Source of the DNA: Sediminicola sp. | GTDB lineage: Bacteria; Bacteroidota; Bacteroidia; Flavobacteriales; Flavobacteriaceae | Direction of reading: 5' to 3' | Assembly: GCA_024643325.1 (NCBI GenBank) | Contig: JAHEND010000002.1 | Location: 108,269-172,268 of the forward strand | Length of the DNA stretch: 64,000 nt | Shown here: one piece after another, positions 1,906 through 10,006 of the stretch | How positions within the stretch are numbered: position 1 is the stretch's first letter | Layout: each line of letters opens with the position of its first letter | Notes under the pieces: generated by a model | What the model was told of the DNA's origin: nothing | The model's database searches: none | The model's input: the letters and a program-made list of their open reading frames with translations, nothing else | Made by a program: the position numbers and the translations under genes

Positions 1906-2511
1906 TCATTTTTGTCTAGAGGCTAAACGTTCAACAACTTCTGCTAAACTGGTCTCTTTCGCGTGTAACAACATTAAATAATGGAACAATAGGTCCGAAG
2001 ACTCCTCTAAAAATAATTCTTGGTTATTGTCCATGGCTTCAATCACAACTTCTACCGCTTCTTCTCCCACTTTTTGAGCAATTTTATTTATGCCTTTCTC
2101 AAAAAGACTTGCCACATAACTTTGATCTCCACTAGCATTGGAAACCCTTGAAGCTATGGTCTCTTCTAAAGTGGTTAAAAAACCATAAGTAGGAGTATTG
2201 GCCTTATTCCAACAGCTGTCAGATCCCTTATGGCAAGTAGGACCCTCTGGGTTCACTTGTATTAACAAGGTATCATTGTCACAGTCTAAGGCAATGTCTA
2301 CAAGACTCAAAAAATGGCCACTTTCCTCTCCTTTTGTCCACAAACGCTGTTTTGAACGGCTGTAAAAGGTAACTTTTTTTGTTTGAGTGGTTTGGGTCAA
2401 TGCCTCCTGGTTCATATAGCCCAACATGAGTACATTTTTGGTCTCGGCATCTTGGATAATTGCTGGAACCAAACCGTCTAAATGTTTTGAAAAATCTACT
2501 TTCATCTGCAT
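1906..2511 (-). CDS. hisIE: Bifunctional phosphoribosyl-AMP cyclohydrolase / phosphoribosyl-ATP pyrophosphatase
   Basis: HisI motifs (TFYSRSKQRLWTKGEESGHFL, GPTCHKGSDSCW) plus HisE domain (QKVGEEAVEVVIEA); last his gene of the operon. Confidence 0.95.
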   Translation of the reverse strand: MQMKVDFSKHLDGLVPAIIQDAETKNVLMLGYMNQEALTQTTQTKKVTFYSRSKQRLWTKGEESGHFLSLVDIALDCDNDTLLIQVNPEGPTCHKGSDSCWNKANTPTYGFLTTLEETIASRVSNASGDQSYVASLFEKGINKIAQKVGEEAVEVVIEAMDNNQELFLEESSDLLFHYLMLLHAKETSLAEVVERLASRQK

Positions 2512-2514
2512 GAT

Positions 2515-3270
2515 TTAAAGTCTAACTGGTATATTTTTATCTTTTAAAAAAGTCTTTAAGGCTGGAATACCTATTTCTCCGTAATGGAAAATACTGGCTG
2601 CTAGAGCGGCATCGGCTTTACCGAAGGTAAAGCTGTTATAGAAATCTTCCATATTCCCAGCACCACCAGAGGCAATAATAGGAATATTGACGCTTTCTGA
2701 CATTTTAGCTAAGGCTTCGTTGGCAAAACCACTTTTTGTACCGTCATGATCCATGGAAGTAAACAAAATTTCTCCAGCCCCTAATTGCTCTGCTTGCTTG
2801 GCCCAATCGAATAAATCTAGATCCGTAGCTTGCTTTCCACCAACTAAATGAACCAACCACTGGTCGATAATCTTTTTGGCATCTATAGCCACTACCACAC
2901 ACTGTGCCCCAAAAGCTTCTGACAATTCTTTAATAAGCGTTGGCCGCCTTACGGCCGATGAGTTAATGGATACCTTATCTGCACCATTCTTAAGCAGCTT
3001 CTCTACGTCTGCAATACTGCTAATGCCTCCTCCAACAGTAAAAGGAATATCTACAGCTGCTGCCACCTGGAGCACCAAATCTGCCATAGTTTTCCGTCCC
3101 TGCTCTGTAGCTGAAATATCTAAAAACACGAGTTCATCTGCACCTGTTGCAGCATATTTAGTGGCTAGTTCTACAGGGTCTCCTGCATCTCTAAGGGACA
3201 CAAAATTAACTCCCTTTACTGTGCGCCCATCTTTTATATCCAGGCAAGGAATAATTCTTTTAGTTAACAT
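2515..3270 (-). CDS. hisF: Imidazole glycerol phosphate synthase subunit HisF
   Basis: [23 protein letters not shown]...; overlaps hisA by 7 bp. Confidence 0.97.
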
Positions 3271-3998
3271 TTTGGCGCATTTAAAATGAACTGCTCTATC
3301 TCTTTTAAAGAGATCCTATCTTCATATATCGCTTTTCCGACAATGGCCCCGTTACAGCCCACAGCACTCAGGTCATAAAGGTCTTGAAGCTTTGCAACTC
3401 CACCACTAGCAATGAGTTTAATGTCTTTTAATTCTCTGATCATTTTTTCATAAAGAGCGATAGAGGGACCTTCAAGCATACCATCTTTAGAAATATCTGT
3501 ACAGATCACATCTGATATGCCTTTTGCCATATAATTAGCTACATAGGGAATTAAGTCTTCTGTAGACGTTTCTAACCAACCTGAAATAGCAATTTTTTCA
3601 TTGGCCGCGTCTGCCCCTAGTATAATTTTATGCGCCCCATAGGCCTTGATCCAAGATAAAAAGCGTTGGGGATCCTTCACTGCAATACTGCCTCCAGTAA
3701 TTTGCTTGGCACCTGATTCAAAGGCTATTTTAAGGTCTTGGTCTGTTTTAAGCCCTCCGCCAAAATCGATCTTTAAATTTGTTTTGGTCGCTAAGGTTTC
3801 CAAAACTTTGTGATTCACAATACCCTGAGATTTAGCACCGTCTAGATCTACTAAATGTAGGTATTCTATTCCGTGGTCTTGAAATGACTTGGCTACTTCC
3901 AAAGGGTCATTGGAATAAATTTTTGCTGTGTTGTAATCTCCTTTCGAAAGTCTTACACATTGACCATTTATAATATCTATAGCAGGGATAATTCTCAT
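3264..3998 (-). CDS. hisA: ProFAR isomerase
   Basis: [22 protein letters not shown]...; operon position. Confidence 0.96.
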
Positions 3999-3999
3999 T

Positions 4000-4581
4000 T
4001 TATAAGGCTAAAAAGTTTTCTAAAATTTTATTTCCAACAGCACTACTCTTTTCTGGATGAAACTGTGTGCCAAAAAAGTTGTCTTTGGCTAAAGCAGCAC
4101 TATAGGGAATATCATACTGACAAACAGCAATGGTCTCCGAAGACAAGGCAGCATAATAGGAATGAACCATATAAATATAAGCGTTCTCTTCAATCCCATT
4201 GAAAAGTGGTGACTTTAATTGCGCAATAGTATTCCACCCAATATGAGGTACTTTAAGTCGTGCCTCAAAAGCTTTAACTTCCACATCAAAAATCCCCAGT
4301 CCTTTTGTGTTGCCTTCCTCTGAACGATTACACATAAGCTGCATACCCAAACAAATACCCAAGACTGGTTGTGTTAGCTGGGGCAACAATTGGTCTATAC
4401 CACTGGTTTGTAACTTTTCCATAGCAGCAGCGGCATGACCTACTCCTGGAAAAATTACTTTGTCTGCTTTTTCTATAACCTTTATATCTTGGGACAAAAG
4501 CGCCTTTACACCCTGCCTTTCCAAAGCAAATAATACACTTTGAATATTCCCTGCACCGTAATCTACAATGACTACTTTCAT
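4000..4581 (-). CDS. hisH: Imidazole glycerol phosphate synthase glutaminase subunit
   Basis: [16 protein letters not shown]..., GICLGMQLM nucleophile motif, GTQFHPEKS. Confidence 0.97.
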
Positions 4582-5714
4582 TATAATACGCCTTTAGTTG
4601 AGGGCAAAAATAATTTGTCCGGATCTCTTTTAATAGCCATTTTTATGGCCTTGGCAAATGCTTTAAAAATAGCCTCTATCTTATGGTGCTCATTTTGCCC
4701 GGTCGCTTTTATATTTAAATTGGCCTTTGCGCCATCTGAAAAGGATTTAAAAAAATGCACAAACATTTCCGTTGGCATTTTACCAATCATTTCTCGATTA
4801 AATTCAGCCTCCCAGACCAACCAATTTCTACCCCCAAAATCAATGGAAACATGTGCCTCACAGTCATCCATAGGCAGACAGAAACCGTACCGCTCTACTC
4901 CAAGCTTATTTCCTAGTGCTTTGTGAAAAGCTTCTCCTAATGCAATAGCGGTGTCCTCAATGGTGTGGTGTTCGTCTACTGCTAGGTCTCCTGTCACCTC
5001 TATATCTAAATCTATTAATCCATGTCTGGACAATTGATCCAACATATGATCAAAAAAGTCAATCCCAGTATGAATCTTTGAGGTTCCTGTACCGTCTAAA
5101 TCCATCTCTATGGAAATTTGGGTCTCATGGGTATTACGCTCTAGACTAACTTTGCGTTCTCCTGCCCTTAAAAAGCTATATATCTCACTCCATTCAGTGG
5201 TTTCCTTAGCAATAAAATCTTCTAAATCTTTTTGATTCTCGGAGAGTTCTTCTCCCCCAAGACCTACTTCTTGTCGCATAAAAATGGCTTTGGCTCCAAG
5301 ATTTTTAGCGAAAGCTACATCCGTTATTCTGTCACCAATAACAAAAGAATTCGCTAAGTCATAAGATCCGTCCATATAAGCAGTCAGCAATGCAGTTCCT
5401 GGCTTTCTGGTGGGTTTATTCTCACTGGCAAAAGTCTTGTCTATAATGATGTTAGAAAACACTATACCCTCCCTTTTAAAACTGTCAATTATAAAATTTT
5501 GAACTGGCCAAAAGGTATCTTCTGGAAATGAATCAGTGCCCAAACCGTCCTGATTGGAGACCATGACCAATTCAAAATCTAATTCCCTAGCAATCTTGGC
5601 TAAATATTGAAAAACGTAGGGATAAAAGACCAATTTATCAAATGCGTCAATTTGATAATCTTTGGGTTCCTTGATTAAGGTGCCATCTCTGTCTATAAAA
5701 AGTATTTTTTTCAT
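4581..5714 (-). CDS. hisB: Bifunctional histidinol-phosphatase / imidazoleglycerol-phosphate dehydratase
   Basis: N-terminal HAD phosphatase [10 protein letters not shown] fused to IGPD ([32 protein letters not shown]). Confidence 0.96.
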
Positions 5715-6766
5715 GACAATGTATAAAGGGTTTCTATGAGTTTATTATTTTCATCTGGGGTACCTATTGTAAACCTAAGGGTGTTCTCACAATGAAGCTG
5801 TTTAGACCTATTTCTAGCAACAATACCCTGGTTTAATAATTGGCGGTATCTCATATCTGCATGATCTACTCGGACCAACACAAAATTGGCTTCTGAAGGA
5901 AATACTTCTTCTACAAAGGGAAGGTTCTTTAGTGCATTGTAGAGGACTTTTCTTTGTGCTACAATCAAATTCACTTCACTCTGGATTCGTTCTCCTTGCT
6001 CCAATCGCTCTATTGCCTTTGATTGAGTGAGTTCATTGACATTGTAAGGGGGTTTAATTTTATGCAGCAAACTTATAATTTCTGGAGAAGCCATGAGCAT
6101 ACCCAATCGAATGCCAGCTAAACCATAGGCTTTAGACAATGTTTGAATAACCACAAGATTGGGGAAATCTGACAGTCTGTTCACCCAGCTTGGTGCATCT
6201 GTGAAATCTATATAAGCCTCATCTACCACTACCAAACCCTTAAAAGTAATCAGAATTTCTTCTATATGAATGCTATTCAATAGGTTACCACTAGGATTGT
6301 TAGGACTACAGATAAACAGCATTTTAGCTGACGTGATAGAATGACTTCTATACTGATCCATATCTATTTCAAAGGCAGTTGTGAGCGGGATTTCATGTAC
6401 TTGAACACTATTAATTCCTGCCAATACGCCATACATGCCATAGGTAGGAGGAAAAGTAATTACAGCGTCCTGATTGGGCTCACAGAAGGCGCGGAATAAT
6501 AAATCTAGCACTTCATCACTTCCGTTTCCGAACAATAATTGGTTTTCAGGCAGATTTTTCAAAGAAGCCATAATGCTACGGAGCGACCTTTGTAAAGGGT
6601 CTGGATACCTATTCACCCCTGTCTCATTGGGGTTTTCATTGGCATCTAAAAAAACCATCTTAGTTCCATTAGACACATATTCGTCTCTTGCAGAAGTATA
6701 TGGAGCCAATGACTTCACGTTCTCTCTACACAGACTCAGGGGATTAAATTCGTTCTTATTCTCCAT
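5711..6766 (-). CDS. hisC: Histidinol-phosphate aminotransferase
   Basis: PLP aminotransferase with [12 protein letters not shown]; operon position. Confidence 0.95.
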
Positions 6767-8048
6767 CTCTCAAATCATTTAAGCGTATACTTACTGCATT
6801 TTTATGTGCGTCTAAGCCTTCTGCTGCAGCCATTAATTCAATGCTCTTTCCTAAGGCTTTTAAGCCTTTTGCAGTCAATTTCTGAAAGCTTATACTATTT
6901 AGAAAGGCATCTAAATTAACCCCACTATACTGTCTGGCATATCCGTTGGTGGGTAGGGTGTGATTGGTTCCAGAAGCATAGTCACCTGCACTTTCTGGAC
7001 TGTAATTTCCTATAAACACAGAGCCAGCAGCGCTTAGCTGATCTAGGTAATAAGCTTCTTCAGACACGCACAAAATGTAGTGCTCTGGGGCATATTGGTT
7101 AATTAAGGATACCGCAGCTTCTTTCGTTTCTAAAAAAATCATTTTACTATTCTCCAACGCTTTACTAGCAATCTCTTTTCTAGATAAAACTGCACATTGG
7201 GCTAATAATTCTTGACTTACTTCTTCAATGAGTGGCTCGTAGGTGGTTACAAAAATAACCTGACTGTCTGGACCGTGTTCTGCTTGAGAAAGTAAATCAG
7301 ATGCAATGTAGGAAGCCTTGGCTGTTTGGTCTGCCATAACCAGTAACTCACTAGGACCTGCTGGCATGTCTATGGCTACGTCATATCTAGTAGCCCATTG
7401 TTTGGCTACGGTGACATATTGATTCCCTGGTCCAAAAATTTTATACACTTTAGGCACTTGATCGGTTCCAAAAGTCATAGCGGCTATGGCTTGAATACCC
7501 CCAATTTTAAATAATTTAGTAACTCCGCATAAGGAAGCTGCAAATAAAATGGCAGGGTGTATGGCTCCTGATTTGTCTGGAGGCGTACACAAAACAATTT
7601 CTTTACAACCAGCAATTTGTGCTGGAATGGCCAACATTAAAATAGTGGAAAATAGGGGTGCAGAGCCCCCTGGAATATAGATACCTACTTTTTCAATAGG
7701 CCTTTTTTCTTGCCAGCAGTGCACTCCTTCCATATTTTCAACAGAAACCTTAGGAGTAATTTGAGCCCGGTGAAAAGCTGTTATTTGATCTTTTGCTTGA
7801 ATAATGGCTTGTTGCAACTCAGGGGCTACTAGTTGCTTTGCATCTTCAATTTCATCTGTAGAGACCTTAAAATCACTTAAAGATACACCGTCAAATTTCT
7901 CTGTAAATTTGGTGATAGCTTTATCTCCATTTGCTTTAATATTCTTGAAAACATCAGAAACAATCGGTTCAATATCTTGATAGGAAGCGGTAGGTCTTTT
8001 TAGAATGTCTTCCCATTCTATCCTTGTAGGGTTTTTATATACATTCAT
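6756..8048 (-). CDS. hisD: Histidinol dehydrogenase
   Basis: Motifs VGIYIPGGSAPLFSTILMLAIPAQIAGC, DMPAGPSELLV, SAGDYASGTNHTLPT. Confidence 0.97.
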   Translation of the reverse strand: MNVYKNPTRIEWEDILKRPTASYQDIEPIVSDVFKNIKANGDKAITKFTEKFDGVSLSDFKVSTDEIEDAKQLVAPELQQAIIQAKDQITAFHRAQITPKVSVENMEGVHCWQEKRPIEKVGIYIPGGSAPLFSTILMLAIPAQIAGCKEIVLCTPPDKSGAIHPAILFAASLCGVTKLFKIGGIQAIAAMTFGTDQVPKVYKIFGPGNQYVTVAKQWATRYDVAIDMPAGPSELLVMADQTAKASYIASDLLSQAEHGPDSQVIFVTTYEPLIEEVSQELLAQCAVLSRKEIASKALENSKMIFLETKEAAVSLINQYAPEHYILCVSEEAYYLDQLSAAGSVFIGNYSPESAGDYASGTNHTLPTNGYARQYSGVNLDAFLNSISFQKLTAKGLKALGKSIELMAAAEGLDAHKNAVSIRLNDLRDGE

Positions 8049-8049
8049 A

Positions 8050-8910
8050 TTACAAAACCATTTTCTCTATTGGGCACACTAAAATACTTTCTGCACCTGC
8101 TAATTTTAATAAATCTATTACTTCCCAAAAAGAATCTTTCTGAATGACCGTGTGCACAGAGCTCCACCCTTCCTCTGCTAAGGGTAGTACTGTGGGACTT
8201 TTCATTCCAGGAAGTATGCTCAACACAGCATCTAATTTTTCATTAGGCACATTGAGTAGTACGTATTTAGATTCCCTAGCCCTCAAGACTGATTTAATTC
8301 TAAAGACAAGCTTTTCTAAAATAGGCCTAACTTCTGAAGATAGTTCTGGTGAAACCGCTAAAACAGCTTCACTTTTTAAAATAACATCTACCTCTTTGAG
8401 GTTGTTTTTAAACAGTGTGCTACCACTAGAAACAATATCACAGATGGCGTCTGCCAAGCCAATATTAGGAGCTATCTCCACAGATCCATTGATTAAATGT
8501 ATGTCTGCATGAATACCGTTTTTTTTCAAATAAGATTGAACAGTGTTAGGATATGAAGTGGCAATCTTTATTCCATCAAAATCTTTCAGCCCATTATAAG
8601 GTGTATCTTTAGGAATAGCCATAGACACTTTACATTTGGAAAATCCTAATTTTTCTACAATAGCAATGCCTTCTCCCTTTTCAATAAGTACATTCTCCCC
8701 AATAATGGCAATGTCTACCACTCCGTCTTTAAGGTATTGTGGAATATCTCCATTTCTTAAGTAAAAGACCTCTAAGTCAAAATTCCTAGCCATGGCTTTT
8801 AATTGGTCTTTACCATTGTCTATAGAAATTCCACATGCCTTCAATAAATCAATAGAATCGTCGTGTAAACGTCCACTTTTTTGAATCGCAATTTTAAGTC
8901 TGTTCTTCAT
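8050..8910 (-). CDS. hisG: ATP phosphoribosyltransferase; start placed at MKNRLKIAIQKSGRL (ORF track extends to 8952 through the terminator)
   Basis: HisG sequence (IAIQKSGRLHDDSIDLLKACGI). ATG at 8910-8908 follows the attenuator U-tract; the extra 14 residues in the track are read through the terminator stem. Confidence 0.93.
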   Translation of the reverse strand: MKNRLKIAIQKSGRLHDDSIDLLKACGISIDNGKDQLKAMARNFDLEVFYLRNGDIPQYLKDGVVDIAIIGENVLIEKGEGIAIVEKLGFSKCKVSMAIPKDTPYNGLKDFDGIKIATSYPNTVQSYLKKNGIHADIHLINGSVEIAPNIGLADAICDIVSSGSTLFKNNLKEVDVILKSEAVLAVSPELSSEVRPILEKLVFRIKSVLRARESKYVLLNVPNEKLDAVLSILPGMKSPTVLPLAEEGWSSVHTVIQKDSFWEVIDLLKLAGAESILVCPIEKMVL

Positions 8911-8911
8911 A

Positions 8912-8960
8912 ATTATTTTAATAAAAAAATAAAAACCCGTTTGATTACTCAAACGGGTTT
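8912..8960 (-). terminator. Intrinsic terminator/attenuator between his leader peptide and hisG
   Basis: RNA-sense AAACCCGTTTGA-GTAA-TCAAACGGGTTT (perfect 12-bp stem, 8960-8933) followed by TTTATTTTTTTATT. Confidence 0.92.
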
Positions 8961-8988
8961 CAATATGGTTGTTAACAACAATACATCA

Positions 8989-9042
8989 TTACCTCGCCTG
9001 AGCGCAGTATATAAAATGATGATGTGTATGTGTTTGTGTCAT
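8989..9042 (-). CDS. hisL: Histidine operon leader peptide MTQTHTHHHFIYCAQAR
   Basis: ATG ACA CAA ACA CAT ACA CAT CAT CAT TTT ATA TAC TGC GCT CAG GCG AGG TAA; 4 His codons in 5 positions, upstream of terminator and hisG. Confidence 0.88.
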   Translation of the reverse strand: MTQTHTHHHFIYCAQAR

Positions 9043-9052
9043 GATTAAGGTA

Positions 9053-9060
9053 CAAAAGTA
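9053..9060 (-). promoter_or_regulatory. Putative Bacteroidota -7 box (TACTTTTG) for the his operon
   Basis: TAnnTTTG match 10 nt upstream of the leader ATG; no clear -33 TTTG seen. Confidence 0.5.
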
Positions 9061-9167: not shown

Positions 9168-9983
9168 TTAGTTGTTTCCCAAAATAATAGGCATTCCTGA
9201 GTCTCCACTACCAATGACAATTACTTTTGAATTTGGCGATTCAGATAATTTAATAGTAGCTTCAATACCTTTGTCCTGTAAAATTTTATCTGTAAGAGAA
9301 GCGCTTAAAATTCTGTTAGCGTCTGCCTTTCCCTGTGCTTCAATAATCTGACGCTCGGCCTCTTTTGCTGCTGTGATCAATTTAAACTCATACTCCAAAG
9401 ACTCCTGTTCTTGCTTTAATTTACTCTCAATAGCAGTTTTAATAGTCGCTGGTAAGGTAACATCTCTAACAAGAACCTCATTTAATTGAATGTACTGTCC
9501 ATCTACAATTTTCTTGGTCTCTTCAAAAATCTCTGCTTGAATCGCGTCCCTTTTACTAGAGTATAATTGTTCTGGAGTATACCTACCCACTACAGAACGA
9601 GCTGCAGATCTGATGGTTGGCAACAATACTCTTTGTACATAAGCTTCTCCTTTCTCTTGGTGTAATTTTCCTAAAAATTCATATTTAGGCTCAAACCAGG
9701 CTGAGGCATCTAACTTTATTTCCAATCCATTAGAAGAAAGTACTTGCATTTTTTCGAATACTTCTTGCTGACGCACTTCATAAATAAAAACTTTATTCCA
9801 TGGGGCAATCACATGAAAACCTTCTCCTAAAGGCGGCTCATCTGTTACTACTCCATTTCCAAAGGTTTTATAAAGTACTCCTGCCCTACCAGAACCTATT
9901 GTCAAAGTAGATTTAGAAACAAAAACGATTAATACAATAAATAAAATAATGAGTGGCATGGCCACTTTAGGTAACTTGTCCAT
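9168..9983 (-). CDS. Prohibitin/SPFH-domain family membrane protein
   Basis: N-terminal TM segment and SPFH-like domain (VKVRDVTLPATIKTAIESKLKQEQESLEYEFKLITAAKEAERQIIEAQGKADA); start set to MDKLPK because the longer start (10001) overlaps a -7 box. Confidence 0.82.
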   Translation of the reverse strand: MDKLPKVAMPLIILFIVLIVFVSKSTLTIGSGRAGVLYKTFGNGVVTDEPPLGEGFHVIAPWNKVFIYEVRQQEVFEKMQVLSSNGLEIKLDASAWFEPKYEFLGKLHQEKGEAYVQRVLLPTIRSAARSVVGRYTPEQLYSSKRDAIQAEIFEETKKIVDGQYIQLNEVLVRDVTLPATIKTAIESKLKQEQESLEYEFKLITAAKEAERQIIEAQGKADANRILSASLTDKILQDKGIEATIKLSESPNSKVIVIGSGDSGMPIILGNN

Positions 9984-9998
9984 AATTGAAAATTTTAA

Positions 9999-10006
9999 CA
10001 AAGGTA
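9999..10006 (-). promoter_or_regulatory. Putative -7 box TACCTTTG for the SPFH gene
   Basis: caaaggta on + strand = TACCTTTG on -; 15 nt upstream of ATG 9983. Confidence 0.45.

Follow-up and report, generated by a model that had tools for sequence, protein, structure and literature searches.

A candidate histidine-responsive attenuator with a His-rich leader peptide upstream of hisG in Bacteroidota

The stretch of DNA analysed here, a window of 64,000 nucleotides, comprises a complete his operon of eight genes in the order hisG-D-C-B-H-A-F-IE, and raises the question of whether the region in front of its first gene could adjust transcription of the operon to the supply of histidine. The first gene, hisG (8050-8910, minus strand), codes for an ATP phosphoribosyltransferase recognised above cut-off by the NCBIfam models TIGR00070 and TIGR03455, and is followed on the same strand by hisD, hisC, hisB, hisH, hisA, hisF and hisIE (1906-8048), each of which was likewise identified by NCBIfam models above cut-off. 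The gene directly upstream (9168-10001) lies on the same strand and showed no NCBIfam match at E <= 1e-20. A sequence-only reading had proposed a histidine leader peptide and transcription attenuator at 8912-9060, a range that ends just before the ATG of hisG at 8910. This proposal is supported by our analysis, according to which the element very probably controls the his operon by ribosome-mediated transcription attenuation: the antiterminator that such a mechanism requires, which had gone unreported in that reading together with a -7 promoter box before the ORF and the distribution across the phylum, is present and covaries among Bacteroidota.

The leader peptide ORF (hisL-like), MTQTHTHHHFIYCAQAR*, is located on the minus strand and comprises 17 codons, with its ATG at 9042 and its TAA ending at 8989. 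Its codons, read 5' to 3', are ATG ACA CAA ACA CAT ACA CAT CAT CAT, continued by TTT ATA TAC TGC GCT CAG GCG AGG TAA. Histidine is encoded by codons 5, 7, 8 and 9, i.e. by four of 17 codons and in four of five successive positions, and the stretch CAT ACA CAT CAT CAT (His-Thr-His-His-His) that represents the regulatory codons occupies 9016-9030. After a spacer of 28 nt (8961-8988), the ORF is followed by an intrinsic terminator (8923-8960, minus strand; z about -5 for the terminator part), which consists of a stem of 12 perfect pairs between AAACCCGTTTGA (8960-8949) and TCAAACGGGTTT (8944-8933), a GUAA tetraloop (GTAA, 8948-8945) and a U-rich tail. Both the ORF and the hairpin had been described in the sequence-only reading, correctly to the base, and the sequence also agrees with its account of a hairpin placed 28 nt past the stop codon and followed by a T-rich tail and the hisG ATG. 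The same reading had noticed that the ORF track extends HisG through the terminator stem, and the start chosen by the gene caller is indeed a TTG at 8952, inside the stem. Homology to HisG begins at residue 1, or at residues 3-5, of the form that starts at ATG 8910, and on sequence grounds this ATG, not TTG 8952, is the true start of hisG.

The last codons of the leader ORF contain an antiterminator 5' arm, CUCAGGCGAGG (9002-8992, minus strand), which mimics the 3' arm of the terminator (UCAARCGGG in relatives) and pairs with the terminator 5' arm CCCGUUUGAG (8957-8948). The latter therefore acts as a switch strand, being at the same time the 5' arm of the terminator and the 3' arm of the antiterminator, and the two helices are mutually exclusive. 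When partial transcripts were folded, those reaching no further than 8938 adopted the antiterminator (-19.5 kcal/mol), and those extending to 8936 or beyond the terminator; with the arm covered, as it would be by a ribosome at the stop codon, the terminator alone was formed. Once the stem has been completed, the terminator is the stabler fold even with the arm free, and read-through would therefore depend on co-transcriptional kinetics. A short ORF rich in codons of the operon's own amino acid, an intrinsic terminator between this ORF and hisG, and an antiterminator that excludes the terminator and can be masked by a ribosome, features by which attenuators of this class are recognised, are all found at this locus. 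Moreover, apart from the hisG terminator, none in the 64-kb window combines an antiterminator mimic with an upstream ORF in which regulatory codons are clustered.

The spacer forms the inner part of the antiterminator in the fold of the nascent RNA. In Flavobacteriaceae this post-stop segment (8988-8962 in the window) carries a recurrent ATGTATTGT...CAACATAT pattern, which folds as an inner antiterminator stem in single sequences, while column-wise covariation gives no support to this inner pairing. A post-stop hairpin acting as a separate pause signal was rejected, since it did no better than slid controls; reading the spacer as the interior of the antiterminator is preferable, although its pairs are not conserved by column. 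Also rejected as a conserved element was a helix of protector type, in which the His codons would pair with GAUGU in the post-stop segment; visible in the fold of the window, it keeps its pairing in only 69% of cells, a value not above that of controls.

In the hisG upstream regions of near relatives (110 loci), we looked for short ORFs that begin with ATG and contain His codons in a cluster. Such a leader was found in 108 of the 110 loci; among the controls, it appeared in 16 of the 5500 dinucleotide shuffles and in 9 of the 3608 flank tiles. L024 and L081, which had been missed by a first peptide search, harbour the same leader with one core His replaced. Typical peptides of the relatives are MRNKNTHHHFYTCPQAR and MKNRTTHHHFHIHAQAR; the number of His codons per leader ranges from two to six, and the totals amount to 362 for CAT and 54 for CAC. 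The terminator is present in nearly all of these relatives, and its loop is of the GNRA type in 85 of 110 loci, reading GCAA, GAAA or GTAA. A His run or terminator that is not conserved in relatives had been named in the sequence-only reading as evidence against it; both turned out to be conserved.

The distance from the ATG to TCARRCGA, the antiterminator arm, falls in a single reading phase in 91 of 91 loci, compared with all three phases for the post-stop spacer (54/33/22). One phase up to the arm and three phases beyond the stop codon is the mark expected of a translated ORF, and this frame constraint points to translation of the leader. Exactly 14 nt lie between the core His run and TCARRCGA in 95 of 97 loci, leaving 13 nt up to the first paired base; in distant loci this gap is mostly 12-17 nt. 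Given the footprint of a ribosome, its leading edge would come near the start of the arm while it is paused at the last His codon, and the arm would be covered once the ribosome is at the stop codon.

In 32 non-redundant loci, standard pairs were retained in 97% of the terminator cells and 93% of the antiterminator cells. Four pairs of the terminator stem have changed on both sides. The switch strand is nearly invariant across these aligned loci, while both of its partners vary by G-C/G-U changes, and a nearly invariant shared 5' arm with varying partners is the pattern expected of a strand that has two partners. Because the switch strand hardly varies, no two-sided changes were found in the antiterminator helix within Flavobacteriaceae, and covariation was therefore tested across the phylum. 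In L052, L054 and L083 the antiterminator arm itself has acquired a stop codon (CUUAGGCGAGG), with loss of the peptide end and retention of the helix; in these loci, with the stop within the arm (GCTTAGGCGAGG) and a shorter peptide, the RNA pairing is held by a G-U pair.

For the phylum-wide comparison, 60 further upstream regions were taken from the phylum sample and the relatives set, 12 of them belonging to the window's own family. A His-run ORF was present in 43 of these 60 Bacteroidota regions and in 19 of 3000 shuffles, so that the rule picks up 0.3-0.6% of shuffles over the near-relative and further Bacteroidota sets. Cognate pairing was then evaluated in 36 loci of 13 families having both a leader and a clear stem, among which the sequences of arm and terminator are altogether different: L123, for instance, pairs CUGCAGGUAG with CUACCUG, L125 pairs GGGUAAGC with GCUUACCC, and L144 pairs GCCGGG with CCCCGGC. 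Uncorrected for relatedness within families, leaders paired with their own terminators at a mean of -15.3 kcal/mol, compared with -9.0 for partners from other families (0 of 20,000 permutations). When the window's family was scanned with a model built on the leader, 100 of its 121 genera, according to a hand count, yielded a single strong match per genome (E <= 2.6e-7), located directly upstream of hisG where compared. Second targets of the model were considered and discarded, as the second match in G241 and the checked match in G300 are plain terminators with no His ORF; among the matches checked in these two genomes, no second histidine-regulated gene was found.

A -7 promoter box, TACTTTTG, agreeing with the Bacteroidota consensus TAnnTTTG, precedes the leader ORF at 9053-9060 on the minus strand, with no clear -33 element seen before the leader. 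Transcription is predicted to start near 9048, with a 5' UTR of about 6 nt. In 42 of 110 loci, the full TAnnTTTG box begins 12-18 nt ahead of the leader ATG. Within the remainder of the Maribacter-like group, degenerate forms are frequent, for instance TAnnTTTA at -15 or -16; in other genera, e.g. L014 and L073, the box is further from the leader. In Flavobacterium psychrophilum, the box has been reported to span -12 to -5 relative to the start site, with leaderless mRNAs amounting to only 5.5% (PMC9723704). From this box-to-start distance and the box positions found here, the leader RNA is predicted to start 0-6 nt before the AUG in loci with such boxes.

In the mechanism that we infer, transcription would begin a few bases ahead of the leader ATG, with immediate loading of a ribosome. 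With sufficient charged His-tRNA, this ribosome would reach the stop codon and cover CUCAGGCGAGG, in which case the terminator arms would pair and RNA polymerase would halt ahead of hisG. With scarce His-tRNA, the ribosome would stall on the CAU run; given the 13 nt between the last His codon and the arm, the latter would lie just beyond the leading edge of the ribosome, stay free and pair with CCCGUUUGAG. The terminator would then not be formed in time, and the operon would be transcribed.

The position of the alternative helix also bears on whether the leader might act, by coupling or re-initiation, on the translation of hisG instead of its transcription. According to a proposal for Bacteroidetes, short leader ORFs close to a start codon enhance re-initiation when the distance is 11-14 bp (PMC4833913), whereas the stop codon and the hisG ATG are 78 nt apart in the window and separated by widely variable lengths among relatives. 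As a conserved U-tailed terminator stands between leader and hisG, and the alternative helix competes with this terminator and not with the hisG start, translational control appears very unlikely. We give hardly any weight to the hairpin being an ordinary terminator of the upstream gene, with a His-rich ORF arisen by chance and a hisG promoter located downstream. Despite the shared strand of the upstream gene, and despite similar CCCGTTTGA terminators without a His ORF elsewhere in relatives, the His run, the frame phase, the 14-nt gap and the complementarity of leader and terminator are all conserved, the -7 box precedes the leader, and only about 20 nt lie between the terminator and hisG. 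A switch of the helix by a protein, or directly by tRNA as in the T-boxes described to control his genes in Firmicutes and Actinobacteria (PMC9413887), with the ORF not serving as sensor, is scarcely credible, as no Rfam family, T-box included, matched at gathering score, the short ORF fills the whole region from promoter to arm, and the conservation of frame and His codons would be left unexplained.

Ribosome-mediated attenuation, the reading retained here, had been likened in the sequence-only reading to that of the enterobacterial his operon, a comparison that holds for the working principle. With the enterobacterial HisL leader (Rfam RF00514) the element shares a His-run leader peptide, a mutually exclusive antiterminator and terminator, a location directly upstream of hisG and the same inferred logic. 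However, the RF00514 His_leader model (gathering score 49 bits) gave no match in the window, nor any leader-region match at E <= 5, and none above cut-off in 21 relative genomes; weak matches in G001 and G003 were dismissed as ordinary terminators after unrelated genes, with no His leader. The layout is also simpler than the one familiar from enterobacteria: the last ORF codons themselves contain the antiterminator arm, conservation of a protector hairpin was not observed and the start is predicted to be near-leaderless, the latter two of which may be differences from the enterobacterial attenuator. Other weak Rfam matches at the leader, among them the trpB motif (27.5 bits, cut-off 59), PyrR and L10_leader, were set aside as well below cut-off, that of the trpB motif depending largely on the terminator hairpin.

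Bacteroid-trp (RF01692), linked to trp by name, is likewise a cis-regulatory RNA of Bacteroidetes (Weinberg 2010, PMC2864571), yet a separate family, whose matches in relatives fall elsewhere than at the hisG leader. Matches of this family in relatives are represented by L171-L177, three of them above cut-off. In the window it gave no match at gathering score, and in the window's own genome none at E <= 0.001, perhaps just because of an incomplete assembly. Leader-peptide attenuation has been suggested for amino-acid operons of F. psychrophilum, a member of the same family as the host of the window, in a paper where no mention of histidine and no analysis of arm, spacing or distribution across the phylum was found (PMC9723704). 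Outside Proteobacteria, the Bacillus hisS*/hisZ leader also combines a His-codon ORF with a premature terminator, but concerns other genes in another phylum, with no sequence relation to the Bacteroidota leader shown (PMC2965389). Until Firmicutes were added by that 2010 survey, its list had consisted of Proteobacteria and Actinobacteria alone; in a 2021 paper devoted to his genes of this superphylum, attenuation is mentioned for enterobacteria only, and a leader not at all (PMC8305728). No description of a Bacteroidota his leader was found in the open-licence literature. A 2004 survey by Vitreschak and colleagues is said to have included candidate attenuators in Bacteroidetes/Chlorobi in some cases. 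The element is uncatalogued in Rfam and follows a known principle, its novelty being narrowed by Bacteroid-trp and the F. psychrophilum proposal.

A probable regulator is hereby assigned to the his operon across much of Bacteroidota, where control by histidine is poorly described in the literature found; an alignment ready for a new RNA family is provided, and HisG start calls are corrected. Rather speculatively, the element could represent a phylum-wide, possibly ancestral and pared-down his attenuator of Bacteroidota, combining two competing helices, no protector hairpin and an arm within the last peptide codons with leaders that, in many Flavobacteriaceae, would start 0-6 nt before the AUG and be loaded with no Shine-Dalgarno sequence. 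Were this so, an untranslated leader would lead to read-through, the opposite of enterobacterial superattenuation. The element also raises the question of how a switch timed by translation operates in bacteria whose translation makes no use of Shine-Dalgarno sequences.

A His-run ORF was absent from all six fetched loci with a HisG only about 28-31% identical (L157-L162). Four Bacteroidota loci with a HisG 54-56% identical (L130, L135, L138 and L139) showed no His-run leader by the rule used, and may have another regulator, a longer 5' region or a hisG that is not the first gene. L124 (G209, family f46), related to the window at the level of phylum only, carries the leader MNLLQLHHHRHHHTCSQARW* with an arm and terminator of Flavobacteriaceae type, and its HisG is 65% identical to that of the window, compared with 46% for two other f46 members, which suggests that hisG was transferred together with its attenuator.
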